DNA from: a virus
Length of the DNA: 38,083 bases
Direction: 5' to 3' (one strand)
Virus record (IMG/VR): IMGVR_UViG_3300032333_000142
Coordinates: 1-38,083 of that record
Part shown: positions 1 through 38,083 of the stretch, piece after piece
Layout of the letters: every line of letters starts with the position of its first letter
How positions within the stretch are numbered: position 1 is the stretch's first letter
Notes under the pieces: model-generated
The model's input: the letters and a program-made list of their open reading frames with translations, nothing else
Told to the model about the DNA's origin: nothing
The model's database searches: none
Translations under genes and position numbers: made by a program

Positions 1-123
1 GTAAATCACTATGAATGGTATCCAGACAGAATGCTCCCTGATAGTCTTTTAGATGTATGCGACACTCTTCTATTCTTTGAGACTCCTCACGATTGGAAAA
101 TGATAGTAAAAGCGAGAGAAAAA
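1..123. repeat. Terminal direct repeat, left copy (circular join)
   Basis: Bases 1-123 are identical to 37961-38083. The open frame entering at base 1 continues in phase from the ATG at 37850, so joining the copies restores one gene. This is best read as assembly overlap of a circular or circularly permuted molecule. A physical 123-base terminal repeat cannot be excluded, but cutting inside a glycosyltransferase gene makes it less likely. Confidence 0.95.
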
Positions 124-816
124 GGGATAAAAACAATCCTGATTCCGATGTATGAATGCACTAGATTTCCTTTTCCTTACGAACCTGATGAAGTCTGGTC
201 TCCATCTGCACTGGACCATCAATTCTATGGCGATAAATCTACAAAACAGATCACTATTCCAGTAGATGTGAAGTGGAAATTGCGAGAAAAAGCCCTTGTT
301 TTTGTGCATAATGCAGGTAATGGTGGTTTAGGTGGTAGAAATGGCACTAAAGAGCTTATAGAAGCTTTAAAGTATGTAAAATCACCTATTAAGTTGATCA
401 TAAGAAGCCAGATTCCAATACAAGACATAGATGATCCGAGAGTAGAAGTTAGAGTAGGTACTTTTGACGATATTTGGAGCGAAGGGGATGTTTTTATATT
501 TCCTGAGAAGTTCAATGGACTCTCCTTACCTCTTCAAGAAGCCTTTGCGAGTGGAATGTTGGTGATGTGTGGCAATCGTTTTCCTAACACTGAATGGCTA
601 CCAAATGAACCAATGATACCTGTTTGGGATTATCATAAAGAAAGAATTGCAGTTTCATTTAATTGTGCAGAATTTCAACCTCAAGATATTGCACAGACTA
701 TTGACACTTGGTATAATAAAGACATTAAAAAGTTTTCATTATTAGGAAAGGAATTTAACAAAAAAAATTCGTGGAAAAATCTCAAAGAAAAATACAAAAC
801 ACTTCTGTCTGCGTAA
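1..816 (+). CDS. Glycosyltransferase, GT-B type (3' part of the gene split by the window edge)
   Basis: This is the C-terminal 271 residues of a protein that begins at 37850 on the other side of the circular join (308 aa in total). The frame is open from base 1; the ATG at 31 is internal. The C-terminal half carries the retaining GT-B signature, with FPEKFNGLSLPLQEAFASG at about residues 152-170 of this part. It holds an acidic residue, the GL.LP turn and a Glu 13 residues later, as in GT4-type enzymes that bind a nucleotide-sugar there. It is the last glycosyltransferase of the glycan cassette and is followed by sugar-nucleotide genes. Donor and acceptor cannot be told from the sequence. Confidence 0.85.
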   Translation, partial: VNHYEWYPDRMLPDSLLDVCDTLLFFETPHDWKMIVKAREKGIKTILIPMYECTRFPFPYEPDEVWSPSALDHQFYGDKSTKQITIPVDVKWKLREKALVFVHNAGNGGLGGRNGTKELIEALKYVKSPIKLIIRSQIPIQDIDDPRVEVRVGTFDDIWSEGDVFIFPEKFNGLSLPLQEAFASGMLVMCGNRFPNTEWLPNEPMIPVWDYHKERIAVSFNCAEFQPQDIAQTIDTWYNKDIKKFSLLGKEFNKKNSWKNLKEKYKTLLSA

Positions 817-1727
817 TAGGTGGGCTTGGCTTTCTCGGTTCTCACTTAGTAGATTATTTAATTGATGAAAGAAATTGCGAAGTTTTAGTTTTAGATAATC
901 TAATTACTGGTAAAGAAAAATTCAAGCATCCGAAAGCTAAATTTGTATGGTGCGATATAACTCACTCTGAAATGCAACTCATAAAACTATTTAAAGAACA
1001 TAAAGTGGAGTATGTATTCAATTATTCAGCAGAGCCTTACATTCCAGTGTCTTTTGAAAGACCTCTCCACGTCTTTGATATAAATGCGAGAGGTGCATTG
1101 ATGGCTATGAATGCCTCTCATAACGCTGGAGTGAAAGCATTTCTCCAAGTATCCAGTGCTGAGATTTATGGTGATGCTCCAGAGCATCCGATCAATGAAG
1201 AATATCCAGCGAGACCTCATTCAACTTATGGAGCTTCTAAACTTGCGATTGATAGTCTGGTCCAAGCGAGATGGAGAGAAGCAAAAGTTCCAGCGATTGC
1301 TCTCCGACAATTCAATTGTATTGGTGAACGTGAAACACATCCGTATGTTGTAACTACGATCATAGAACAGTTATCTAAATCAGATAGCATAAAACTTGGG
1401 AATAATTCATTTAGAGATTTTCAATATGCTGGTGATGCTGTGAGAATGGCTGTAGAACTTTTAGAGAAAGGAGAATTTGGAGAAGTTTATAATATGGGAA
1501 GTGAAGAAGGAGTAAAGATTTATGATTTGGCTAAAATGCTCGGAGCGGAGTCTATAGAAGTAGATGAATCTAGAGTTCGTGCTTGGGAGATCTGGCACTT
1601 ACAAAGTGATAATACAAAACTTTATTCAGTGATTGATTACAGACCAAAAACTACACTTAGAGAAGCTTTAAAAAAGACAGTAGATTATTATAAATCTAAC
1701 GAAGGATGGGATTTTAATGACAAATAA
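771..1727 (+). CDS. NAD-dependent nucleotide-sugar epimerase/dehydratase (extended SDR)
   Basis: A 318-residue extended short-chain dehydrogenase, full length for the family. The N-terminal Rossmann motif is GGLGFLG (residues 17-23). The catalytic pair is Y153 and K157 in STYGASK, and SSAEIYGD precedes it at about 128-135. Such enzymes epimerise or dehydrate UDP-, GDP- or dTDP-sugars through a transient keto intermediate. The start used is GTG at 771, overlapping the upstream glycosyltransferase by 46 bases. No ATG lies between it and the Rossmann motif, so the true start may be a few codons off. It overlaps the dehydrogenase-like gene by 11 bases, so the genes are probably translationally coupled. 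The exact sugar is unknown. Confidence 0.88.
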   Translation: MEKSQRKIQNTSVCVIGGLGFLGSHLVDYLIDERNCEVLVLDNLITGKEKFKHPKAKFVWCDITHSEMQLIKLFKEHKVEYVFNYSAEPYIPVSFERPLHVFDINARGALMAMNASHNAGVKAFLQVSSAEIYGDAPEHPINEEYPARPHSTYGASKLAIDSLVQARWREAKVPAIALRQFNCIGERETHPYVVTTIIEQLSKSDSIKLGNNSFRDFQYAGDAVRMAVELLEKGEFGEVYNMGSEEGVKIYDLAKMLGAESIEVDESRVRAWEIWHLQSDNTKLYSVIDYRPKTTLREALKKTVDYYKSNEGWDFNDK

Positions 1728-2415
1728 TACTAAACATTTAGTAATAGGGCTTGGGGAAGTAGGAATGGCTTTAGTAGAAGTCTTCAAATGTGATGGGGAA
1801 GATAAACATAAAGGAATTGAAGCTCCAGCGAAGGGTTATAAATTTCTTCATATCGCTTTTCCATATAAGGATAAAAATTTCATTGACGAAGTAAAGAAGT
1901 ATCAAGAAAAGTTTGATCCTAAATACACTATCATTCACAGCACTGTTCCGATTGGAACTTCGGATGCTTGTAATGCTCTGCACTCTCCTATTCGTGGAGT
2001 ACATCCTCACTTGGCTGATAGCATAAAAACATTTAAGAAATTTATCGGTGGAGCAGATTGTTTTGAGATAGCTTCCGAGTTTAAGCATTTTAGAATTGAT
2101 TGTGTATGTACTAGATATGCACGAAATACTGAGGCTCTGAAACTTTGGGATACAACTCAGTATGGAATGTTTATTATGCTCAATAAGGAAATAAATAAAT
2201 ACTGTGAAGAAAATAAATTAGATTTTAATATTGTTTACACAATAGCAAATGAAACTTATAATGAAGGCTACACAAAAATGTTGAGACCAGAAGTTATGAG
2301 ACCTTTTCTAGAATACAAAAATGAAAAGATTGGAGGACATTGTGTAATTCCAAATTGTAAACTTTTAGATAGTGAAACACCTAAAAAAATTTTAAAACAA
2401 AACGATCTTTTATGA
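1717..2415 (+). CDS. Short UDP-glucose/GDP-mannose dehydrogenase-like protein
   Basis: A 232-residue relative of nucleotide-sugar dehydrogenases, which are usually above 400 residues. Family motifs appear in order: Rossmann GLGEVG (11-16), HSTVPIGTS (74-82), TEALKLWDTT with the probable catalytic Lys K142, and IGGHCVIPN with the catalytic-type Cys C209. The protein ends soon after, so most of the usual C-terminal nucleotide-sugar domain is missing. It may be a minimal enzyme, work with a partner, or have taken on another oxidoreductase role. The stop overlaps the aminotransferase start (ATGA). Conservation of K142 and C209 argues against simple decay. Confidence 0.72.
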   Translation: MTNNTKHLVIGLGEVGMALVEVFKCDGEDKHKGIEAPAKGYKFLHIAFPYKDKNFIDEVKKYQEKFDPKYTIIHSTVPIGTSDACNALHSPIRGVHPHLADSIKTFKKFIGGADCFEIASEFKHFRIDCVCTRYARNTEALKLWDTTQYGMFIMLNKEINKYCEENKLDFNIVYTIANETYNEGYTKMLRPEVMRPFLEYKNEKIGGHCVIPNCKLLDSETPKKILKQNDLL

Positions 2416-3386
2416 ATAAACTTCCATATGAAATACTAGAAGAAGAATACGCAAAGTATGTTGGTACTAAATATGCAGTATCTACTAACACTGGAACTTC
2501 TGCTTTGCACTTAGCTTTAGCATCTATTGGAATTGGGAAAGGAGATGAAGTCATTATCCCTGATTTCACTATGATTGCCTGTGCTTGGGCTGTATCTTAC
2601 ACAGGAGCAAAACCTGTCTTTGTAGATTGTGGAGATGATCTTCTTATAGATGTCAGTAAAATAGAAAACAAAATAACAAAAAGAACTAAAGCAATTATGC
2701 CAGTTCATATTTACGGAAGAATCTGTGATATGGATAAAATAATGAAGTTGGCTAAAAAATATAAACTCCGAGTAATTGAAGACTGCTGTGAAGCTCAAGG
2801 AGGTATGTGGAAAGATAAAATGGTGGGAACTTTTGATATTGGAGTGTTCTCTTTCTTCTGGAACAAGATCATCCCTGCTGAAGAAGGCGGAATAATTACT
2901 ACAAATCACAAAAGGACTGCTGATCAAGCGAAATTTTTGAAGAATATGGCTTTCACTCCAGAGCATAATTACTTTCATCCTGAAATGGGATTTAATTATC
3001 GGATGCCTAATTTAGAAGCTCAAGTGGCTTTAAATTCTCTAACTATGATAAATGGAATCCAGCAGAAACGTTTCCAAATTGAGGGTTGGTATAATAAATA
3101 CCTTCATCCACAAATGCAAATGCCTAAAAGAAATGTAGTCTGGGTTTATGACTGCAAACATCCTTACGCTGAGAAAATCGTAAAAACCCTTAATTCACAA
3201 GGTTATAATGCCAGAATGAGTTTCAAGCCGATGTCTATGCAACCTATGTATCTTGGAAAGTATAAAAAAACTAACGCTTATAAACAATCTAAACAGATTT
3301 TTTATCTACCTGTATCCCCTTTAATGACAGAAGAAACAGTTATGGATATTTGCTCTAAAATTGACACCTATATAGGCGAGTTATAA
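2412..3386 (+). CDS. DegT/DnrJ/EryC1/StrS-family sugar aminotransferase
   Basis: A 324-residue PLP-dependent aminotransferase that converts a keto-sugar nucleotide to an amino-sugar, typically using glutamate. TNTGTSALHLAL (25-36) is the phosphate-binding segment, IED (122-124) holds the Asp contacting the PLP ring nitrogen, and FSFFWNK (146-152) holds the Schiff-base Lys K152 just before EEGG. The protein is slightly shorter than usual at the N-terminus. It overlaps the dehydrogenase-like gene by four bases, so the epimerase, dehydrogenase and aminotransferase form one co-expressed sugar-nucleotide block. The last codons also contain the -35 and -10 boxes of the next gene's promoter. Confidence 0.92.
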   Translation: MNKLPYEILEEEYAKYVGTKYAVSTNTGTSALHLALASIGIGKGDEVIIPDFTMIACAWAVSYTGAKPVFVDCGDDLLIDVSKIENKITKRTKAIMPVHIYGRICDMDKIMKLAKKYKLRVIEDCCEAQGGMWKDKMVGTFDIGVFSFFWNKIIPAEEGGIITTNHKRTADQAKFLKNMAFTPEHNYFHPEMGFNYRMPNLEAQVALNSLTMINGIQQKRFQIEGWYNKYLHPQMQMPKRNVVWVYDCKHPYAEKIVKTLNSQGYNARMSFKPMSMQPMYLGKYKKTNAYKQSKQIFYLPVSPLMTEETVMDICSKIDTYIGEL

Positions 3387-7833: not shown

Positions 7834-9849
7834 ATGTCATTATTTTCTAAAGCAAAATCAGTAATCAGTAAAGTAGGAAGTGCGATTAAAAAAATCACCA
7901 CTATCCCTACTAAAATAGGTCCTCAACCTGCATCTGTTGGGTTATCTAAATCTACTCAACCTTTCAAGAGTGCATTACCAACACCTAAGCCATTGGGAGG
8001 TTTATCTTCAGGGAAAACACCAACATCTGGCTCTAGTACAAAATTCATAGGTCCATTACAACCAAAGCCGAAATTTCCTAATGGTCCAATAACACAAATT
8101 GGTTCAAATTGGTATCCTGCTGGGGGTGCTATAACACAAGTTGGAGACACCTTTGTTCCTGCAAAAAATATTTCCATAAAACCTAGTGGTGGAGGAGGAA
8201 GTTCTTCTAATAAATTAACTGCTACAAATACACCTAGTAATTTTGATGCTCTAAGTTTTGGATCAGAGACAAGTGCATTTTCTGTTCCAGCAAATACTCC
8301 AGCTTCTAGTGGAGCAAGTTATGGAGGTGATGGTGGTATAGGAGCTTATCTCGGAGCTAGTGCTGGAAGCACAGCGAACCCTGCCCTCAATCCAAATATG
8401 GGTGCATATAACCCTATGGCTTCTTATGAAGAAGAACAAAAGAAAAGACAAAAAGAAGCCGAAAAATCTCAAAGAGATCTTATTAAAATGATGAATGAAT
8501 TGGCTGGTAAACCTGCTGAAGCTGTTAGACTTGAAGGAGAGGCTGGAATACCACAAACTGAAGCAGAAATTCGTGATCTTCAAGCAAAACAAAGTGCGGA
8601 GACTGCTCAATATATTGCTCAGACTCAAGCAATTCAAAACAAACCAATTGCTATGGAATTTATCGCTGGTCAGCAAGGAGAAGTGCAAAGACGTTATGGT
8701 ATTGATGCTTTGATCACATCATCTCTGGTCCAAGCGAAATCTGGTCAATTAGAAACTGCAAAGGCTTCAGTTGATCGTGCCCTATCTTTAAAATATGATC
8801 CAATAGAAGCTAGAATAAAAACTCAAGAACAAATTCTACAATTTAACTACGATAATCTTGATCGTGCCGATAAGAAACTAGCTGATGCACGTTTAGAAGT
8901 CTTGAATTCTCAAAAAGAAGACTTACAACAATTTAAAGATATTCAAACTGAAACAGTGAAGACTGCTTTAGCAAATGGAGCATCTTCTGATGTAGTCTCT
9001 GCAATAATGAATGCAACTTCTGTTGCTGATATAGGTAAAATTGGAGGTCAATATGCTCCTGCTGGAACATTTATGGACTTCGGAACTTCAACTTCTGGAT
9101 TCACACCTACTCAACAATCTAACTTCAATAAGATTCCTGATAACTTAAAGACCAGTGTCCTTGAGCTTGTAAATGGTGATGTCCTTTTGTCTGACCTTGT
9201 AAAATCAAGAGGAATTCAAGGCACACAGCAAATCCAGCAACTTCTTTCTTACGCTCAAGCTATTGATCCAACATATAGTCCAAACACTGAGAAGATTAGA
9301 TACGAATTTAAGAAACAATGGAGTACAGATGCGGTAAAGGGTGCTGTAGGATCACAAACAGCTATCAACACTGCTCTCGGACACTTAGCAGACTTAGCTG
9401 AGGCTTCTAGGTCTCTTCCAGCGAATGTTCTAAAGAAAATGAACTCTGTAAAGAACATTTTATCTAAAGAATTTGGAGATCCATCAGTTACGAACTTCAG
9501 AATAGTTCTTAATGCTCTCGGAACAGAGTTAGCACGTGTTTATAAGGGTGGAGTACCAAATGAAGGTGAAATTAAAGAGTGGCAAGAATCACTTGCATCA
9601 AATTTCTCACAATCTCAGTTAAATGGAGCATTCAATACTACTTCCAAACTTCTATCCTCTAAACTTACAGCATTGAGATATAAATATACAACTACAATGG
9701 GCAGAGAGTATGATCAAAGTCTTATTGACCCTGATAAAAGAGAGGCACTTATTCAAGCTGGAATTAATCCTGATTATATAATTAAAGAAAACCTTCCTAC
9801 TTCAGTTGCAGGTTCAACTTTGGTAGATGGATTTTCAGAAACTTGGTAA
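7834..9849 (+). CDS. Large virion protein, possible internal/ejection protein
   Basis: A 671-residue protein without a recognised domain. Residues 1-170 are Pro/Gly/Ser/Lys-rich and look disordered. Residues ~190-370 are highly charged and helical (EEEQKKRQKEAEKSQRDL and later Ala/Gln-rich helices), suggesting coiled coils. The C-terminal third is mixed alpha, including an ETEK-like helical domain at about 480-640. The gene directly precedes a lysozyme-headed giant protein, and paired helical and lysozyme proteins are typical of the ejection-protein set of podoviruses (established for T7 and P22). This role is inferred from position and composition. It starts leaderless and ends in a TAATG overlap. 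Confidence 0.6.
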   Translation: MSLFSKAKSVISKVGSAIKKITTIPTKIGPQPASVGLSKSTQPFKSALPTPKPLGGLSSGKTPTSGSSTKFIGPLQPKPKFPNGPITQIGSNWYPAGGAITQVGDTFVPAKNISIKPSGGGGSSSNKLTATNTPSNFDALSFGSETSAFSVPANTPASSGASYGGDGGIGAYLGASAGSTANPALNPNMGAYNPMASYEEEQKKRQKEAEKSQRDLIKMMNELAGKPAEAVRLEGEAGIPQTEAEIRDLQAKQSAETAQYIAQTQAIQNKPIAMEFIAGQQGEVQRRYGIDALITSSLVQAKSGQLETAKASVDRALSLKYDPIEARIKTQEQILQFNYDNLDRADKKLADARLEVLNSQKEDLQQFKDIQTETVKTALANGASSDVVSAIMNATSVADIGKIGGQYAPAGTFMDFGTSTSGFTPTQQSNFNKIPDNLKTSVLELVNGDVLLSDLVKSRGIQGTQQIQQLLSYAQAIDPTYSPNTEKIRYEFKKQWSTDAVKGAVGSQTAINTALGHLADLAEASRSLPANVLKKMNSVKNILSKEFGDPSVTNFRIVLNALGTELARVYKGGVPNEGEIKEWQESLASNFSQSQLNGAFNTTSKLLSSKLTALRYKYTTTMGREYDQSLIDPDKREALIQAGINPDYIIKENLPTSVAGSTLVDGFSETW

Positions 9850-12632
9850 TGAGCACATTAGACCCTACAATTATAGCTCTCGCAAAAGCCATCAAGTACT
9901 CCGAGACTGGTGCTGGTGATACTTATAATCGCACAGGAGGAAGTGGAGAGTATGGTGCATATCAGTTTATGCCTTCTACTTACAGAAACTATGCTCAGAA
10001 ATATCTGGGCAATGCTAGTGCACAGCCGACTGTAGAAAATCAAAACAGAATTGCGTACTCATTTATTCAAGATAAAAAAACACAGGGGTATAATCCTGCT
10101 CAAATTGCTTCTATGTGGAATGCTGGAGAGGGAAGACCTGATGCCTATAAACAAAATTGGAAAGGGGTAAACTCTAAAGGTGTTTCATATGACACTCCTG
10201 CTTATGTTCGCAAGGTATCTCAGTACTATCAGCAATTTAAAGAGCCTCTAGCTTCTCAATCAAACTATGTAGAACCAGTTCAAGCCGAATCTCCTTTCAC
10301 AATGGATATGCCAGTTGTAGAAGAGAAGTCATTCCTAAGAAAAGTTGGAGATTTTTTCACTGGATCTACTCAAAAATTTGGTAAAACTATCGGAGAGGCT
10401 ATTGCTTCAGGTAAAAATGTAGAATTATATGCTGGAGCTCTTCAAAACTACACTAAATTAGTAAATGACCTTCAAATTCAGATAAATTCACGAATAAGAG
10501 ATGGTCAAGATACATCTAAACTAGCCTTTACACTCCAAAATCTTAAAGATAACCCTCCAGATCTAAAAGATTTTACAGGGGATGTGATAAATAAAACTAC
10601 AAAGCAGATTTTAGGAGAGGCTGGAGGTACTCTTTTAGAAATGACTTCTGGAGGTCTTTTATCTGGTGGAACTGGACTCGTAAAAGGTAGCGGAACTTTA
10701 TTAAAAGAAAGTGGTGCATTGCTCGGATCAGCTTCTATAGGACAAAAAGTACTACAAGGAGCAAAAATTGGAGCTACTTATGGAGCTATTGGAAGTGGAA
10801 CATATGCTATGCAAGAAAATAAATCTACAGGGAATATTCTCTTAGATTCTTTTGTTGGTGGTATTTTGGGTGCAGGACTAGGTGCTGTAACTGCTGGTGC
10901 AGGTGGATTGATAGGAAAAAGAATATCTGCCATTTCTCCAACTGAAAAAGCTTTCACTCAGGCTCAAACAAATGTTGCTAAAGCTTATGAAAAAGCTCTT
11001 AATCTTACACCTTCTCAAAGAGCAAAAGAACAGGCTTTATTAGAAAGAACTGGAGACAATGTATTTACTACTCTAGTGAAAAATCATATTAATCTTGGCT
11101 CAAATAAATCTTCACAGCAACTAGATGACGTGGCTTCACTGTATGAAAAAGCTATTCAAAATGCTCAAAAAAGTGAACACGCTTTGTTCAATCTAAATGA
11201 ATTAACTCAAAGTACTTTCAAGGAAATAGATGAAAGAGTTCCAAGTGCTACAGCACGTGAAGAAGCTAGAAAGAAAATTCTAACTGAAATAAGTTCACTG
11301 CTTAAAGAAGGCAAGGGCACAGTTATAAAAAATCCTAAGGGAGAGACTTTAGTGGACTCTTCTATTATGGAAAGACTACGAAAGACAGGTAATAGCTGGA
11401 CTCCATTCAATGCTTCTGATCCTGAAAGAATTGGAAGATCTACTGGCTATGCTCTAGCAAATGCGGTCCGAGACAATGTTGAAAAGTACGGAACATTTCC
11501 AGCTTATCGTGGAGCTATGCGAGAATGGGGTAAAATCATTCACGTTCAACAAGTACTCGGAAAACTAGAGAAGTCTGGAAAGCATAAGTTCAGAGTGCTC
11601 GGAGGACTCTCAGGAGCAATTTCTCGTAGAGTTCTGACGGGTGCTCTTGGTTATCATACTGGAGGGCTTGGAGGCTTAATTTTGGGCGAATTAGGAGGTG
11701 AATATGGTGCAATGGTAGTCTCAAATCCGAGACTTAAAACTTACTTAGACAGATTGATCATAAAGAATTTTGATAAAAAGGTAACTCCTGAGATTATTGC
11801 TACACTTTCAAATCAAGTAAAAAATGAAGCAGAGCGATTGATCAAGTTGAAACAAATCCCAGCTAGAACTCAAACAAAGGCTGGAGATTATCCTATAAAT
11901 CTTCCAAAAAGTGCCAGAGAAACAAATCTCGGATTAGATGAGGTAAAAAATACCAAATTTGGTCAGAGTTCTGTAGAAAGTGCTCCGATAACGAAGCAAA
12001 CTACGAATATTCCAAGTAATAAAAGCATACCTAATAATACCACACTTGTAGATTCTTTTGTAAGTAAAAGTGCCGAAAACAAACCAATCATTGATACGAT
12101 AGCAAAAACAGTAGCCGATAAATATGGGGTTACTTTTGTTGAAGCTCCGCTAAAAACATCAGAAAGAATCAATGCTAAGGTGATCAGAGACTATGGTGGT
12201 GATTATGAAAATATAAACACACTAATTAAAGACGGAGCAAGAAACACAATACTATCTACCAGTGAACAACTTGATAATAAAATCATTAGTGAACTTTTAA
12301 AAACAAATAAGGGTGCGACACATAAAATACAGTCTCCTGAAAACTTTAATGGATATAAAGGAAATATCGTGAGAGTTCCGATGAAGAATGGATTACTTGC
12401 AGAAATACAAGTTCACACACCTGAAATGCTAGTTGCTAAGTTTGATCCAGAGGTTGCATTGAAGATACTAGGAAAAGAAAAATTTGATGCTATTGTAAAA
12501 AAGAGCGGTGTAACAGCTGGGCTCGGACATAAACTATACGAGCTTGAACAAAAAGCCATCATAGAAGGAAACTTGAAAGACTTGAATAAATATGCTAAAA
12601 TGCAACAGGATTATTATCTTAACTTTAGATAA
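9849..12632 (+). CDS. Ejection-type virion protein: N-terminal lysozyme/transglycosylase, C-terminal RelA/SpoT-like domain
   Basis: A 927-residue multidomain protein; ATG 9849 overlaps the previous stop (TAATG). Residues ~8-130 are a lysozyme-like peptidoglycan hydrolase with probable catalytic E19 (AIKYSETG) and the SLT-type motif YGAYQFMPSTY (35-45), followed by MWNAGEGRPDAY. Residues ~250-355 are Gly-rich and hydrophobic, suited to membrane insertion. Residues ~360-640 are helical. A Thr/Ser/Lys linker leads to residues ~740-927, which resemble RelA/SpoT synthetases: a basic segment around R773/K777, DGARNT with D795 and R798, NGYKG (834-838), and AEIQVHT with E852. D795 and E852 correspond to the catalytic acidic residues of the family. 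Inferred role: wall penetration during DNA entry plus delivery of a nucleotide-modifying domain. The lysozyme call is firm; the RelA/SpoT call is moderate. Confidence 0.8.
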   Translation: MSTLDPTIIALAKAIKYSETGAGDTYNRTGGSGEYGAYQFMPSTYRNYAQKYLGNASAQPTVENQNRIAYSFIQDKKTQGYNPAQIASMWNAGEGRPDAYKQNWKGVNSKGVSYDTPAYVRKVSQYYQQFKEPLASQSNYVEPVQAESPFTMDMPVVEEKSFLRKVGDFFTGSTQKFGKTIGEAIASGKNVELYAGALQNYTKLVNDLQIQINSRIRDGQDTSKLAFTLQNLKDNPPDLKDFTGDVINKTTKQILGEAGGTLLEMTSGGLLSGGTGLVKGSGTLLKESGALLGSASIGQKVLQGAKIGATYGAIGSGTYAMQENKSTGNILLDSFVGGILGAGLGAVTAGAGGLIGKRISAISPTEKAFTQAQTNVAKAYEKALNLTPSQRAKEQALLERTGDNVFTTLVKNHINLGSNKSSQQLDDVASLYEKAIQNAQKSEHALFNLNELTQSTFKEIDERVPSATAREEARKKILTEISSLLKEGKGTVIKNPKGETLVDSSIMERLRKTGNSWTPFNASDPERIGRSTGYALANAVRDNVEKYGTFPAYRGAMREWGKIIHVQQVLGKLEKSGKHKFRVLGGLSGAISRRVLTGALGYHTGGLGGLILGELGGEYGAMVVSNPRLKTYLDRLIIKNFDKKVTPEIIATLSNQVKNEAERLIKLKQIPARTQTKAGDYPINLPKSARETNLGLDEVKNTKFGQSSVESAPITKQTTNIPSNKSIPNNTTLVDSFVSKSAENKPIIDTIAKTVADKYGVTFVEAPLKTSERINAKVIRDYGGDYENINTLIKDGARNTILSTSEQLDNKIISELLKTNKGATHKIQSPENFNGYKGNIVRVPMKNGLLAEIQVHTPEMLVAKFDPEVALKILGKEKFDAIVKKSGVTAGLGHKLYELEQKAIIEGNLKDLNKYAKMQQDYYLNFR

Positions 12633-12833
12633 ATGAAATCAACACAATTATTAAAAAGACCAGTTTATTTTTCAGACGGAGAAGATATGGGAAGAATAAC
12701 TGCTGATAAAAAAGCTTTTCTAAAACTTTCTGGTAAGCCAGAGATAGAAACAAAATTTGAAGTTGGAAACAACACACTATTTGACTTGATGCACAGTGGA
12801 AAAGAGATTACGGAGCAAGAATATAACGCTTAA
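12633..12833 (+). CDS. Small hypothetical protein
   Basis: A 66-residue protein starting immediately after the stop of the ejection-type gene (TAA then ATG, no gap). It is mixed alpha/beta and charged, with no recognised motif. It is the last gene before an intrinsic terminator at 12841, so it closes the tail/ejection transcription unit. Confidence 0.6.
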   Translation: MKSTQLLKRPVYFSDGEDMGRITADKKAFLKLSGKPEIETKFEVGNNTLFDLMHSGKEITEQEYNA

Positions 12834-12840
12834 TAGGAAT

Positions 12841-12869
12841 CCCCAGTTATCCACATCTGGGGTTTTTAT
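12841..12869 (+). terminator. Intrinsic terminator ending the tail/ejection operon
   Basis: A perfect 6-bp stem CCCCAG (12841-12846) / CTGGGG (12857-12862) has a 10-base loop and is followed by TTTTTATTT. It lies 8 bases past the preceding stop. The loop contains a perfect DnaA box. Confidence 0.9.
12847..12855 (+). other. DnaA-box consensus TTATCCACA (copy 1)
   Basis: A perfect match to the bacterial DnaA box, preceded by G, lying in the loop of the terminator at 12841. It is one of three intergenic copies in the same orientation (others at 20796 and 21574). Whether DnaA binds is inference. Confidence 0.5.
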
Positions 12870-12873
12870 TTGC

Positions 12874-12902
12874 TTGACTTATCAACCGCAAGTTGCTATA
12901 CT
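12874..12902 (+). promoter_or_regulatory. Promoter, TTGACT-17-TATACT with extended -10
   Basis: TTGACT (12874-12879) and TATACT (12897-12902) are 17 bases apart, with TG one base before the -10 box. Transcription should start near 12909, giving a leader of about 39 bases before ATG 12948. It directly follows a terminator and drives the small-gene block 12948-13997. Unlike most other promoters here it leaves a leader, but that leader has no Shine-Dalgarno sequence near the ATG. Confidence 0.85.
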
Positions 12903-14040: not shown

Positions 14041-17004
14041 ATGAACGAAAGGCTAAAAAAGAAAGCTCAAAAACTCATTGATAACAACGGAAACGAGTAT
14101 CTTGCACAATTGGATGCAACTATTGAAATTTCAGATAAGTTAGATGATCTCACAGAAGCAATAAAAGACTTTCAAACTCCAGAACCTCCAGAAGTGGAAG
14201 TAAATTTAGACAAAACTGATACGCTCTTACAAGACATACTTGCGGAGTTAAAAAAAAAAGACGAAGAAGAAATTACATATTCAATTAGTCCTGAAGACCA
14301 AGAAAAGCTTCGTGGAGAAGATGGCTACACTCCTGAAAAGGGAGTAGATTACTTTGATGGAAAAGACGGACAGAATGGAGAAAATGGGAAGGATGGATCT
14401 CCAGATACCAGAGAAGACATAATCAAGAAAATAAATGAAGGCGGAGTGCTTAAAATCAATGCTTCTGAAGTTACTGGTTTACCTGATTTCACTCGTGAAG
14501 TGGTCCGAGAAGTTGGAATGGGTTTTGTAGAGACTCCTATAAAAGCTGGTAGCAATATTTCTATTACAACTGATGCTAGTGGAGCAAGAGTTATTTCTTC
14601 AACTGCTTCAGGTGGTGGCTCTTTTGCCACTCTCACAGGCGACCCTTATGATAATGCAAACCTAACAACTGCTTTAGATGCAAAACAAGACGACATAACT
14701 TTAACTACCACAGGTTCTTCTGGAGCTTCAACATTAGTAGGGGCGACTTTAAACATACCAACTTACACTCTTGCAGGGCTTGGTGGTGCTAACACAGCAC
14801 TTTCAAACCTTTCTTCTGTGGCGATAAATACTTCACTTATCTCCGACACTACAAAAACAGATGACTTAGGAAGTTCAACTATTAAATGGCGAAATACATA
14901 TACTGAAAATCTTTATGCTGATACTATAGGCATAACTTCTTTGAAAGGAGTTTTCGGAGAAAGATTTTTATTCGTCAACGAATTTTCTGATGTGCTATGG
15001 AGAGCAGATAAAAGATTTACAGTTACTTCATCTTGGGGGGGTGGGATTTTAGCCAATCTATTTAAGGGTGGTTTTGAAAATACATATACAATCACACCGT
15101 CTGTAACTGATGTCATAAATATAAATTTAGCTAACCAATCTGGTGTTCCTGCTGGTGGAGTCACTTACCCTGAAGGTAAATTCTATGTTCACTTCTATTA
15201 CACCAATAATAACTATTCTGCAATTTCGGCTAGAGTTAAAGAAGGTGGAGTTTGGTATGCTTTAGCGACTCCAGTAAATATTTCAACAGTAGTAGGTGAT
15301 AAGGTTTTAGAGTTTTCTATTCCTGGAGCAAACTATCTCACAGATATAGAACTTACAATTACCACAAATGGTTCTGATAATGTTTTAGTAACTGCTTTAA
15401 ATTATGTATGCAATAGATGGACAGCAGAACTAGAACTTCCTTACTTTGATAAGTTTGCATTATCTAATAGCATTATGGGTAATACAGCTTTTAGAACAGT
15501 ATCTCAAACTACTTCTGCCAACATAAACGCTGACGGAGATTGGTATATGGGAGTTGGTGGAACAGGTGGAAAGTTTGGTATCGGAACTTCTAGCCCAGGA
15601 ACTTATCATTTAAATGTAGTAGGAAATATTTTAGGTAATAGTATTTATACTAACTCAGGGCAAATATTTGGAAGTCTTGGAATTGCATATTTAAGAGCTG
15701 GAAGCACTAACCCAACTCACATCAATGATACTGCTTCAGGAGATATTTGGTTAGCAGGTGGTGGTGGAGATGTAGGTGTAGGAGAACAATATCCAACTAA
15801 TAGACTTCACGTCAAAGCCCTTTCTGCAACTGCTTCTTATAACCTCTTAAACATTGATGGTGGAGCAACTGGCTTTTCAGGAGCAAACGACACAGGAGCT
15901 TATTCTATAATCTTTTCAGGTTGTGCTTACCAAACAAGTATAGTGCAAGTAATCGGAGCAAAGATACAATTTGAAAAGGCTAATACTTGGAACTATGCTG
16001 ATACACCAACAGGAACAAGGTCTATTGTTAATTTTTATGCTTCAGCAGGAACACCGGACTCGCCAACCCTAGTGAAATTCCTTTCCGGTTATTGGGATAA
16101 TACAGTTAGACTTCCTTCACTAGATACAGATGCAACTGCTCCAACAACTTCAGGCACAACTAAAATGGTTATCACAGATGCAAATGGGCAACTTTCATTC
16201 ACAACAATACCAACTTCAGGTAGTGCCACATTCATAGGACTTACTGATGTTCCAGCAAACTTTACAGGTAGTGCAAATAAATATGTGAGAGTAAATGCAG
16301 GGGAAACTGCTTTGGAGTTCGTTACTCTAGCTGGTGGTGGAGATGCACTTGTAGCAAACCCATTATCTCAATTCGCTTCTACAACTTCTTTACAACTAGC
16401 AGGTGTAATTTCTGATGAAACAGGTTCAGGTGCTTTAGTATTCGCTACTTCTCCAACTTTAGTAACTCCGATACTTGGAACTCCAACATCAGGAACACTT
16501 ACAAACTGCACAGGACTTCCACTTACAGGATTAGTTTCAGATACAACAACAGCTCTAGGCATAGGCTCAATCAATTTAGGACACGCTTCAGACACTACAA
16601 TAGCAAGAGTTTCAGCAGGAGTAATTTCAGTAGAAGGCGTTACTATCCCAACAATATCTTCAACAAGTACTCTAACTAATAAACGAATAACAAAACGAGT
16701 AGTAACCACTACAGATGATGCTACAGCAGTTATTGATGTTGATGCCACAGATGTATATGAACTTTCAGCAGTTGCTAACGCTACTACATTTTCAACCACA
16801 GGAACACCGACAGACGGGCAAACAATGCTGATACGATTTAAAGATGCAGGTGTAGCGAAGGGATTAACTTGGGATGCAATATTCGTTGCAATAGGAGTAA
16901 CTTTACCAACAACAACAGTAGTCAGTAAATGGCACTATGTCGGAGTGCAATATAATTCGTCAGCTACGAAATGGCACACAATAGCCGTTTCTGTAGAAGC
17001 ATAA
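14041..17004 (+). CDS. Tail fibre/spike with collagen-like segment
   Basis: A 987-residue fibre protein. The N-terminal ~85 residues are a charged helix, probably a coiled-coil trimer stem. Residues ~91-125 form a short collagen-like stretch (GEDGYTPEKG, FDGKDGQNGENGKDG) typical of trimeric fibres. Residues ~180-290 are Thr/Ser-rich with the LTTALDAKQD and TLAGLGGANTALSNL motifs common in phage fibres. Residues ~330-480 form a beta-sandwich-like segment. The C-terminal half contains repeated fibre motifs (SPTLVTPILGTPTSGTLTNCTGLPLTGLV). It likely carries host-receptor recognition. No hydrolase motif or obvious self-cleaving chaperone is visible. Confidence 0.88.
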   Translation: MNERLKKKAQKLIDNNGNEYLAQLDATIEISDKLDDLTEAIKDFQTPEPPEVEVNLDKTDTLLQDILAELKKKDEEEITYSISPEDQEKLRGEDGYTPEKGVDYFDGKDGQNGENGKDGSPDTREDIIKKINEGGVLKINASEVTGLPDFTREVVREVGMGFVETPIKAGSNISITTDASGARVISSTASGGGSFATLTGDPYDNANLTTALDAKQDDITLTTTGSSGASTLVGATLNIPTYTLAGLGGANTALSNLSSVAINTSLISDTTKTDDLGSSTIKWRNTYTENLYADTIGITSLKGVFGERFLFVNEFSDVLWRADKRFTVTSSWGGGILANLFKGGFENTYTITPSVTDVININLANQSGVPAGGVTYPEGKFYVHFYYTNNNYSAISARVKEGGVWYALATPVNISTVVGDKVLEFSIPGANYLTDIELTITTNGSDNVLVTALNYVCNRWTAELELPYFDKFALSNSIMGNTAFRTVSQTTSANINADGDWYMGVGGTGGKFGIGTSSPGTYHLNVVGNILGNSIYTNSGQIFGSLGIAYLRAGSTNPTHINDTASGDIWLAGGGGDVGVGEQYPTNRLHVKALSATASYNLLNIDGGATGFSGANDTGAYSIIFSGCAYQTSIVQVIGAKIQFEKANTWNYADTPTGTRSIVNFYASAGTPDSPTLVKFLSGYWDNTVRLPSLDTDATAPTTSGTTKMVITDANGQLSFTTIPTSGSATFIGLTDVPANFTGSANKYVRVNAGETALEFVTLAGGGDALVANPLSQFASTTSLQLAGVISDETGSGALVFATSPTLVTPILGTPTSGTLTNCTGLPLTGLVSDTTTALGIGSINLGHASDTTIARVSAGVISVEGVTIPTISSTSTLTNKRITKRVVTTTDDATAVIDVDATDVYELSAVANATTFSTTGTPTDGQTMLIRFKDAGVAKGLTWDAIFVAIGVTLPTTTVVSKWHYVGVQYNSSATKWHTIAVSVEA

Positions 17005-33147: not shown

Positions 33148-33403
33148 AGAACCTTTCTGGTGGTCTATCACAGGTAAAAAATGGGGAGATGTCGCTATGA
33201 CATTCGGTAATGTTATTTATTGCAGGGCTGACAAACTTACACCTGATGTTTTAGCACACGAAATGGTTCATTTGAAACAGCATAAGTATTCTAAACTATA
33301 TGCTTTTTATATCTTAATAAGGTCTTCCTTGAATCATAAGTTTCACGATAAACTTGAGTTAGAAGCAACTACGGAGCAGTTTAAAGTCAAAAACAATATA
33401 TGA
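33122..33403 (+). CDS. Small zincin-like metallopeptidase candidate (HExxH)
   Basis: A 93-residue protein. LAHEMVHLKQHKYSKLYAFYILIRSSLNHKFHDKLELEAT carries HExxH (HEMVH) and a downstream Glu in ELEAT as the possible third metal ligand, the layout of small zincins. No signal peptide. It may process a virion protein or act on host protein. It overlaps the first glycosyltransferase by four bases (ATGA), tying it to the glycan cassette transcript. Catalysis is inferred. Confidence 0.75.
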   Translation: MNKFKIVTKEPFWWSITGKKWGDVAMTFGNVIYCRADKLTPDVLAHEMVHLKQHKYSKLYAFYILIRSSLNHKFHDKLELEATTEQFKVKNNI

Positions 33404-34143
33404 AAATCGTAGGAACTATGGTTTGCGGACCAAATGAGAAATATTTAGAGAAATCTCTGCAAGAATTTGCTAGATTGTGCGATACCGCTATAATTGCTAC
33501 AAACAATGCAGACGAAATTACCAAAAAACTTATTGAGAGCTTTGGATTCACACATTATGAAGATGACAGAGAATGGGGAATCTATCAGCCTGACATTAAA
33601 ACTGACTTACTTAAAAGAGCAGGAGAATTCCAGCCAGACTGGATCGTTGCATTGGATTCTGACGAGGTCTTTGCTCCAGAATTCACTAGGTCAGAAGCAG
33701 AACATCTCGCAAGTGGAGAAGAAATAGCTTATTACTTCTTAGTAGTTAATTTATACAATGATGAAGATCATTTTGCTCACTCAACTGGTATTCAACGCTT
33801 TTGGAACATTCGTTTTTATAAATATTTACCGCAATATGGATTGCAGTTTCAAAGAAAAAGTTTGCATTGTGGTCTCGCTCCTCCTATTGCTTATAAGTAC
33901 GGCTGGAATGCTCCTTATTATCTCATCCATTATGGATTGATGCTTCCAGAAGATAGAGAAAGGAAGCGACTAAGGTATCAGAAGTATGATCCTAATAAGA
34001 AATTTAAAGCTGGAACTTACTACGATGAATTAGGTCAAGAATTACCTATGAGGAAATTAGATAGAGAAGGTCTTTTACTAAAACTTAAAGAGAGTAAAGA
34101 AACTCAAATTAGAAAAACTCCAAAATTACCTGACAATATATGA
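33400..34143 (+). CDS. Glycosyltransferase, GT-A type (family 2-like)
   Basis: A 247-residue protein. N-terminal strand MKIVGTMVCGPNEKYLEKSL, then WIVALDSDEVFAPEF with a DxD metal-binding motif D86-S-D88. HYGLMLPEDRERKRLRYQKYDP is a C-terminal motif recurring in this group of phage and bacterial GTs. It transfers a sugar from a nucleotide donor to an unknown acceptor. First GT of the cassette; overlaps HExxH gene and next GT by four bases each. Confidence 0.88.
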   Translation: MKIVGTMVCGPNEKYLEKSLQEFARLCDTAIIATNNADEITKKLIESFGFTHYEDDREWGIYQPDIKTDLLKRAGEFQPDWIVALDSDEVFAPEFTRSEAEHLASGEEIAYYFLVVNLYNDEDHFAHSTGIQRFWNIRFYKYLPQYGLQFQRKSLHCGLAPPIAYKYGWNAPYYLIHYGLMLPEDRERKRLRYQKYDPNKKFKAGTYYDELGQELPMRKLDREGLLLKLKESKETQIRKTPKLPDNI

Positions 34144-35006
34144 AACTTTTAATCATTGGAAAATTTATTAAACTACACGATGAGGAATACATTGCTCGTT
34201 CATTTGAAATGCTTGGAGTGGAAGTCAGGAGAGTCAGTGAAAAATTATCAACTTTTGAGACTATAGAAAATATAGAGTACTTCCAGCCTGACTATATTCT
34301 CTGGACTAAACTTAAGGTAGGTGAACCAGCTAAATTGAGAGATTATTGCAGAAAGTATAAAACTATTTGCTGGGTTTTTGATTTATATTTTGATTATCAC
34401 AGAGAATTGAAGCTAAATTCACCAGCTTTTACTGCTGACTATGTATTTACAACTGATGGAGGACACGATACAGAGTTCAAGGCTAAGGGAATCAATCATA
34501 ACTGTGTTAGACAGGGTATTTATGCTCCTGAATGTCAGTATTCTATAGATAACCCAGTGTATGATGTGGTTTTTATAGGCTCAGAGAACCCTTATTACCC
34601 TGAACGGACCAGATTTATGGATAAACTATCTCTAGATTATAACTTTAAGTGGTTTGGAAGATATAGCACAAATGAGATACGAGGCTTACCTTTAAATGAA
34701 TTATATTCTCAGACTAAAATAGTAGTTGGGGATAGTGTTTATTCTCCTCATTACTGGAGCAATAGAGTTGTGGAGACTTTAGGGCGTGGTGGATTTTTAA
34801 TACATAGAGAAGTAGAAGGACTGAAAGAAGTCTATCCTGATTTGGTTACTTACGATGGAACTTATGATGATCTGATGAAAAAGATTGATTACTATCTAGC
34901 TCACGAAGATGAGAGAAGAGAAATTATTAAAAAGAATTTTGAAAGAGTACGAGATTATTATACAATGGATAAACAATGTCAAAAACTATTAAATTACATT
35001 TCATAG
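34140..35006 (+). CDS. Glycosyltransferase, GT-B type (CgeB-like)
   Basis: A 288-residue protein with two Rossmann-like halves. The first contains DYILWTKLKVGEPAKLRDYCRKYKTICWVFD, the second VYDVVFIGSENPYYPERTRFMDKL and then SNRVVETLGRGGFLIHREVEGLKEVYPDLVTY, the nucleotide-sugar site of CgeB/GT4-like enzymes with its conserved E and GG turn. It is part of the cassette, with a 31-base overlap with the next GT. Confidence 0.86.
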   Translation: MKLLIIGKFIKLHDEEYIARSFEMLGVEVRRVSEKLSTFETIENIEYFQPDYILWTKLKVGEPAKLRDYCRKYKTICWVFDLYFDYHRELKLNSPAFTADYVFTTDGGHDTEFKAKGINHNCVRQGIYAPECQYSIDNPVYDVVFIGSENPYYPERTRFMDKLSLDYNFKWFGRYSTNEIRGLPLNELYSQTKIVVGDSVYSPHYWSNRVVETLGRGGFLIHREVEGLKEVYPDLVTYDGTYDDLMKKIDYYLAHEDERREIIKKNFERVRDYYTMDKQCQKLLNYIS

Positions 35007-37853: not shown

Positions 37854-38083
37854 CAGGATCTATAGTATTTGCAACTGAACAAGGGCTTGGTTATCTAGCG
37901 AAATCATTTTATGATAATGGAATAATTGATTATATTGCAGTGCAACCTCACTCTTCTAGAGTAAATCACTATGAATGGTATCCAGACAGAATGCTCCCTG
38001 ATAGTCTTTTAGATGTATGCGACACTCTTCTATTCTTTGAGACTCCTCACGATTGGAAAATGATAGTAAAAGCGAGAGAAAAA
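37850..38083 (+). CDS. Glycosyltransferase, GT-B type (5' part; continues at base 124 of the window)
   Basis: The start of the gene whose 3' part is at 1-816. ATG 37850 overlaps the upstream stop (ATGA). The N-terminus MTGSIVFATEQGLGYLAKSF is a typical GT-B start with a first strand and Gly-rich turn. Joined across the circle it gives 308 residues. Bases 37961-38083 duplicate 1-123. Confidence 0.88.
   Translation, partial: MTGSIVFATEQGLGYLAKSFYDNGIIDYIAVQPHSSRVNHYEWYPDRMLPDSLLDVCDTLLFFETPHDWKMIVKAREK
37961..38083. repeat. Terminal direct repeat, right copy (circular join)
   Basis: Identical to 1-123. See the left copy. Confidence 0.95.

Follow-up and report, generated by a model that had tools for sequence, protein, structure and literature searches.

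Enzymes of the Tas1/Apk type make (p)ppApp, and one of them, Apk2, is known as a prophage toxin carried on MuF proteins, with IapK/Aph1 immunity (PMC12226406, PMC11699363); IapK and Aph1 neutralise these MuF-Apk2 toxins, whose product is (p)ppApp (PMC12226406). A 2012 study predicted that RelA/SpoT domains on MuF proteins are toxins (PMC3482391); they are counted among the MuF toxins (PMC5576092) and also appear among the domains of phage polyvalent proteins (PMC5512222). A MuF family of the Bacteroidales swaps Apk, ADP-ribosyltransferase (ART) and deaminase domains (PMC11699363).

Here we describe a gene pair (9849-12833) in an IMG/VR virus contig of 38,083 bases, the whole of which was analysed and is called the window below. 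We read the pair, with a probability of roughly 0.65 for the entire mechanism including delivery, (p)ppApp and purpose, as a polymorphic toxin-immunity module mounted on a phage ejection protein. In the open-access literature we found no report of a (p)ppApp-type toxin on an ejection protein with a soluble-lytic-transglycosylase-type (SLT) head, and the parts of PMC5512222 used here contain no report of a lysozyme-RelA/SpoT fusion.

The synthetase domain and the gene behind it

The first gene of the pair (9849..12632, + strand; open reading frame and translation) encodes a 927-residue protein of the ejection type, whose residues 738-927 (12060..12629, +) are assigned as a Tas1/Apk-type small alarmone synthetase, or toxin, domain from sequence, model and conservation. 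When this domain was compared by phmmer with all of the PDB, the sole significant match was Tas1 (6ox6_A, E 8.9e-22 over 157 residues), with KDGARNT, GYKG and EIQVHT of the window aligned to KDLARNT, GYSG and EIQVNS of Tas1. The AlphaFold2 model of the domain, built on a 37-sequence alignment, reached pLDDT 94 and pTM 0.87; Foldseek ranked Tas1 first for it (E 1.6e-13, TM 0.75/0.80), and VIA-align gave Z 21.8 against Tas1 over 191 residues (rmsd 2.8), with small alarmone synthetase 1 (SAS1) next best at Z 13.8 and CapRel and FaRel2 lower at 11.9 and 7.9. The model places residues 738-927 with the Tas1/Apk toxins, not with housekeeping RelA or the tRNA-modifying toxSAS enzymes. Housekeeping RelA/SpoT and the tRNA-pyrophosphokinase toxSAS enzymes (CapRel, FaRel2), tried as identities, rank structurally below Tas1.

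An earlier note on this DNA had proposed a RelA/SpoT-type synthetase with both catalytic acids kept, leaving a tRNA or nucleotide pyrophosphokinase as another option, and had suggested a structure model of the region from residue 740 to 927 as a check. That model matches the RelA/SpoT SYNTH fold, with Tas1 best, and the landmarks of the note (E19, YGAYQFMPSTY, the Gly-rich hydrophobic middle, D795, R798, NGYKG at 834-838, E852 within AEIQVHT, and a His where E-x-Q-x-R-T normally has Arg) all stand in the translation where it had put them. The synthetase thus held up, but the enzyme class had been drawn too generally, since the tRNA-type and housekeeping enzymes fall below the Tas1/Apk type.

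Pfam RelA_SpoT does not reach the window domain, though it reaches the relatives L046 and L108, and neither the domain nor the full-length protein, used as a single query sequence, found anything in viral contigs; an alignment query recovered relatives at 69 loci in viral contigs. PHROG 7625, annotated "head morphogenesis", was rejected as an identity: it matches the synthetase domain and not a head-morphogenesis part, because that family consists of MuF fused to such a domain.

Across 37 viral sequences D795 (codon 12231-12233, +), G835, Y836, E852 (codon 12402-12404, +) and Q854 never vary, and R798 hardly does. When cellular sequences are added, for a total of 87, the invariant set is K769, K777, G835, Y836, E852, Q854 and K864; 86 sequences retain D795 and the remaining one has a gap, while R798 is retained by 85, the exceptions being a gap and the Ser of L093. 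The Tas1 equivalents of D795, R798, E852 and Q854 are D327, R330, E382 and Q384, and the spacing of D795 three residues before R798 recurs in SaEAS (D121 and R124). By alignment with the active-site residues of Tas1, D795 and E852 would share one pocket.

Behind the domain lies a gene for a 66-residue Tis1/IapK-like immunity protein (12633..12833, +), assigned by HMM, Pfam, PDB profile and model, the start codon of which directly abuts the toxin stop (TAAATG). An ORF of 55-88 residues follows the domain within about 220 bases in 60 of 67 viral loci, and an HMM of this small-gene family, built from 29 sequences with the window's own left out, found a unique match among the 326 ORFs of the window, at 12633-12833 (E 7.8e-8; the next had E 0.21). 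Scanned alone, the 66-residue ORF matched a single Pfam family, Tis1_ImmP, at an E of 0.0046 that is below the cut-off. The family profile had one significant match in the PDB, Tis1 (6ox6_B, E 4.9e-6), and the AlphaFold2 model of the protein (pLDDT 78) matched 6ox6_B at Z 8.4 (rmsd 2.0, 62 residues; next entry 4.8). The toxin domain and the gene behind it therefore match both partner chains of one crystal complex, 6ox6, and the window has the adjacent cognate Tis1/IapK immunity gene by which Tas1/Apk-type systems are recognised; that the two form a toxin-immunity pair is, in our view, highly probable.

An HD-hydrolase ORF resembling Aph1, which hydrolyses (p)ppApp, comes after the small gene in several viral relatives. 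Bordetella phage PHB04 (L003), with its separate hydrolase, gave the idea of such a partner in the window, and none was found: HD_4 matches nothing in the whole record, whereas it does match the positive controls. Directly 3' of the immunity gene is a terminator-like hairpin (12834..12868, +; CCCCAG/CTGGGG followed by a T run, z -2.16), which the consensus scan did not pick up on account of its 10-base loop. Beyond it, a sigma-70-like promoter with 10 of 12 consensus positions (TTGACT-17-TATACT; 12874..12902, +) may begin the next transcription unit, but it is a weak candidate, since such sites occur in the region at about the chance number.

As for the substrate, the ATP-binding residues of Tas1 include R330, E382, N370 and K353 (PMC12691689). 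The window has I840 at the place of N370. Viral groups of the XkdF, MuF, ejection-type and solo kinds also have Ile or Leu at this site, and 13 of the 23 cellular sequences have Asn. T824 is the counterpart of K353, give or take one residue in the alignment, and most relatives have Arg or Lys there. Both positions vary within the family, and since I840 and T824 bear on substrate choice, we regard specificity for adenine nucleotides as probable and no firmer than that. The same two residues, an unusual H856, and the ability of exported relatives to make both (p)ppApp and (p)ppGpp (PMC12691689) are what would speak for a domain that makes (p)ppGpp or pyrophosphorylates tRNA in place of (p)ppApp synthesis. 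We consider this unlikely, with Tas1 ahead of the best (p)ppGpp synthetase by 8 Z units and of CapRel and FaRel2 by more, with a Tis1-like immunity gene in place, and with the Arg of GTP-type E-x-Q-x-R-T motifs missing. The lack of this Arg is no defect, since Asn takes its place in Apk-type relatives, namely in each of the 23 cellular and in the majority of viral sequences; His, as in the window, is also found in the divergent PHB04-like group.

Elsewhere, XkdF-type prohead-protease proteins (about 39 viral contigs) and MuF proteins end in the same domain, and so do other ejection-type proteins (L052 and L054, 827-943 residues, with a small gene and an HD hydrolase behind). Two viral copies are stand-alone proteins, BFVD holds large uncultured-phage proteins that also have the synthetase fold, and at 27 cellular loci the domain sits on several kinds of protein, the MuF type included, with a small gene behind in most. 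The XkdF fusions (L046-L087 and L089-L090; for example L046:1004-2308 and L049:5308-6579) join PF14550 to an Apk-type synthetase and have a Tis1-like gene behind; the literature consulted here contains no description of such an XkdF-protease/Apk-synthetase fusion, and synthetase ORFs related to this group occur in Chitinophagaceae contigs L131, L138 and L140. One MuF-synthetase fusion of 1020 residues (L065:3487-6549) has an apparent intein-like insertion in its MuF part. Another MuF protein (L093:4945-8115) carries the synthetase in mid-protein, with Ser at the equivalent of R798 and a further large C-terminal region, and is possibly an inactivated copy to which a second domain was added. A divergent group (L003:7092-9357, of phage PHB04, and L095-L113) has GYRD replacing GYxG; in PHB04 the synthetase is on a protein adjoining the portal, with another kind of small gene and an HD hydrolase behind it. 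The window domain itself stands in the tree on a long branch (1.18) and in no well-supported set, so that the tree is compatible with one as with several transfers into ejection proteins.

The carrier protein and its variable C-terminus

An exact direct repeat of 123 bases at both ends of the record (1-123 and 37961-38083) makes the assembly look circular and complete at about 37,960 bases, which it probably is, despite the lack of an end-repeat class in its entry. The gene order is P22/T7-like, running from a gp3-type packaging protein (itself P22-like) through terminase, an SU10-type adaptor and ejection-type genes to a tail-fibre-like gene (14041..17004, +; phrog_3030) that closes the virion gene block. 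Neither a tyrosine nor a serine integrase was found anywhere in the record, and PADLOC gave no match. Sugar and glycan genes (an NAD-dependent epimerase, a DegT-type aminotransferase, glycosyltransferases) lie within the structural block, at 1-3386 and 33400-35006 of the window, several of them common to the phage relatives G001 and G007. The start of the toxin-bearing gene overlaps the stop of the preceding one (TAATG), which encodes another ejection-type protein (7834..9849, +; 671 residues) with counterparts in the same two relatives.

In P22 (gp7, gp16 and gp20) and T7 (gp14-gp16), the ejection proteins are encoded before the tail fibre or spike, with a peptidoglycan-cutting activity in the set and membrane-passing segments; to our knowledge, none of them carries a toxin domain. 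The window protein likewise has a head of the peptidoglycan-cutting kind, and its gene lies just 5' of the tail fibre. Residues 1-130 (9849..10238, +), with E19 as candidate catalytic Glu, match Pfam SLT_2 and Transglycosylas below cut-off in the window, while the SLT head passes the cut-off in the homologues L116, L149 and L150 (for L116, PF06737 and PF01464), and E19 and GAYQFMP are invariant in an alignment of four homologues; on this likeness the head is classed as an SLT-type lytic transglycosylase. Searches of the 927-residue protein with Pfam and PHROG found no N-terminal MuF domain, the SLT head standing in its place, and no N-terminal PAAR/Rhs delivery domain. There follow a helical, Gly-rich middle (residues 131-671; 10239..11861, +), common to the orthologue L154 and containing a hydrophobic stretch at residues 330-348 by hydropathy, and a linker ahead of the toxin domain (residues 672-737; 11862..12059, +), with weak likeness (E 0.007) to the linker of the ART-bearing protein L174. 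Because of the SLT head and the P22/T7-like gene surroundings, we infer presence in the virion, and we think it quite probable that the protein is packaged and ejected.

The C-terminus differs among related carriers. The orthologue L154, encoded by a different phage contig, matches residues 4-671 of the window protein with 45.6% identity (46% over 686 residues) and stops 38 residues past the aligned part, without the synthetase domain; L115 and L116 have the same head and also lack the synthetase. In G001, whose terminase is 64% identical to that of the window, the corresponding position is taken by a protein that resembles L116 in its middle part (E 1e-46) and probably ends in an ADP-ribosyltransferase; this ART match does not reach the Pfam cut-off and finds only weak similarity in the PDB. 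We base the claim for ART on L174 (5761-9480; 1239 residues), since it passes the cut-off and G001 does not: it combines an SLT head with a C-terminal ART-PolyVal domain above the curated cut-off, and the tail-fibre gene directly after it is related to the tail-fibre-like gene of the window. The ejection-slot proteins L031:4000-6741 (-) and L153:5986-9021 also have C-termini that are probably ART-like, with matches that stay under the Pfam thresholds or carry no assignment; in L153 a further unassigned region comes before it.

Here, then, is the pattern of polymorphic toxins, a conserved carrier, toxin-free in L154, L115 and L116 and ART-bearing in L174 and probably G001, with an exchangeable C-terminus that looks like a swappable slot. 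Together with the Tis1-like gene, the variable C-terminus leads us to a toxin-immunity module. The earlier note had recognised a lysozyme-type head on a protein of the ejected kind, which the homologues and the gene position bear out, and had thought of an injected effector. The note left out both the variable C-terminus and the immunity gene, which lies beyond the single gene that it covered.

Proposed mechanism and alternatives

We suggest that the N-terminal lytic transglycosylase would cut open the cell wall and the Gly-rich hydrophobic middle would aid passage through the envelope, so that the C-terminal synthetase would reach the cytoplasm of the newly infected cell. There it would move pyrophosphate from ATP onto the 3'-OH of an adenine nucleotide, yielding (p)ppApp and draining ATP. 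During assembly of new virions the Tis1-like protein would plug the synthetase, and hence the producing cell could finish assembly. The purpose may be a fast shut-down of host functions, or of rival-phage or prophage functions, at entry; set against the alternatives, we put this forward tentatively, at somewhat less than even odds. A broader proposal falls just short of an even chance, namely that virulent podovirus-like phages have, as a general feature of their ejection proteins, a slot for interchangeable warheads, through which this phage would deliver a (p)ppApp synthetase into every infected cell at DNA entry, an antidote shielding assembly.

Two features count against the module as we read it: I840 and T824 differ from the substrate contacts of Tas1, and Aph1 is absent from the record. 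Moreover, Apk1-class enzymes are very fast (PMC12691689), so that even a small number of ejected molecules could spoil the cell for the infecting phage; and with the immunity gene in the virion block, the antidote would come too late in a new cell unless it travelled with the toxin. Why a phage would poison the cell it has entered might be answered by a low dose, by rapid host shut-off, by exclusion of rivals, by a co-packaged antidote, or by action in the producer cell only.

The last of these would be a role confined to the virion-making cell, such as timed shut-off, an aid to lysis or exclusion of a second phage, with the C-terminal domain left undelivered, for example by cleavage before packaging. 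The direct adjacency of toxin and immunity genes within the virion block fits such a role, as do the two stand-alone viral copies and the dozens of viral contigs in which similar domains sit on head-assembly proteins (the XkdF-type protease and MuF), some of which act before packaging. In the window, however, the domain is on an SLT-headed protein of the ejected kind, a fusion that an intracellular role does not need, and we give this alternative perhaps a one-in-five standing, beside that of the (p)ppGpp or tRNA reading.

Virions might instead serve as weapons in failed infections, killing immune, lysogenic or non-permissive neighbours while immunity protects the carriers, as has been proposed for the MuF polymorphic toxins of temperate phages, and the toxin-immunity arrangement is indeed that of prophage MuF-Apk2 (PMC12226406, PMC5576092). 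Yet the record looks complete and has no tyrosine or serine integrase that we could find, and immunity has hardly anything to protect where no carrier lysogen exists, which makes a lysogen-protecting role less likely here than for MuF toxins; we hold it to be improbable. Finally, an inactive remnant or a purely structural domain would suit the long branch and the two replaced contact residues, but is very improbable given that the core catalytic residues are all kept, the fold is confident and an immunity gene is maintained.

Relation to known systems

An Apk-type toxin on an SLT-headed ejection protein, in a phage without detectable integrase, is new as far as the open-access literature shows; the MuF-Apk2 toxins of prophages were already known. 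Its presence suggests that exchangeable toxins are mounted on the injection proteins of some phages, and would extend polymorphic toxin-immunity systems from prophage MuF head proteins to the DNA-ejection apparatus. What a host-killing toxin does for the phage that injects it becomes testable, (p)ppApp use by phages in host takeover can be given a clear test, and an SLT-headed ejection protein with a variable C-terminus and a small adjacent gene provides a searchable pattern for other injected effectors.

Among the systems compared, the ejection proteins of P22 and T7 resemble the window protein in gene position, peptidoglycan cutting and membrane-passing segments. The phage polyvalent proteins of PMC5512222, which bear RelA/SpoT, ART or lysozyme domains, resemble it in placing effectors on large virion-type proteins, and their ART-PolyVal domain is also found in its sister proteins; unlike them, it has one toxin domain and a cognate immunity gene. 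Apk2/IapK/Aph1 systems share with it a C-terminal synthetase on a phage structural protein, an adjacent gene for a protein-binding immunity factor and swapped C-termini, but they have a MuF carrier and Aph1, whereas the window has an SLT-headed carrier and neither Aph1 nor integrase was found in it; with an SLT head in place of MuF, the window protein is not an Apk2. The Tas1 (Apk1)/Tis1 pair of the Pseudomonas aeruginosa type VI system (6ox6) has a PAAR/T6SS carrier where the window has a phage SLT-headed protein, and N370 and K353 where the window has I840 and T824, and is like it in synthetase fold, in catalytic residues and in an adjacent small immunity gene of the same fold.
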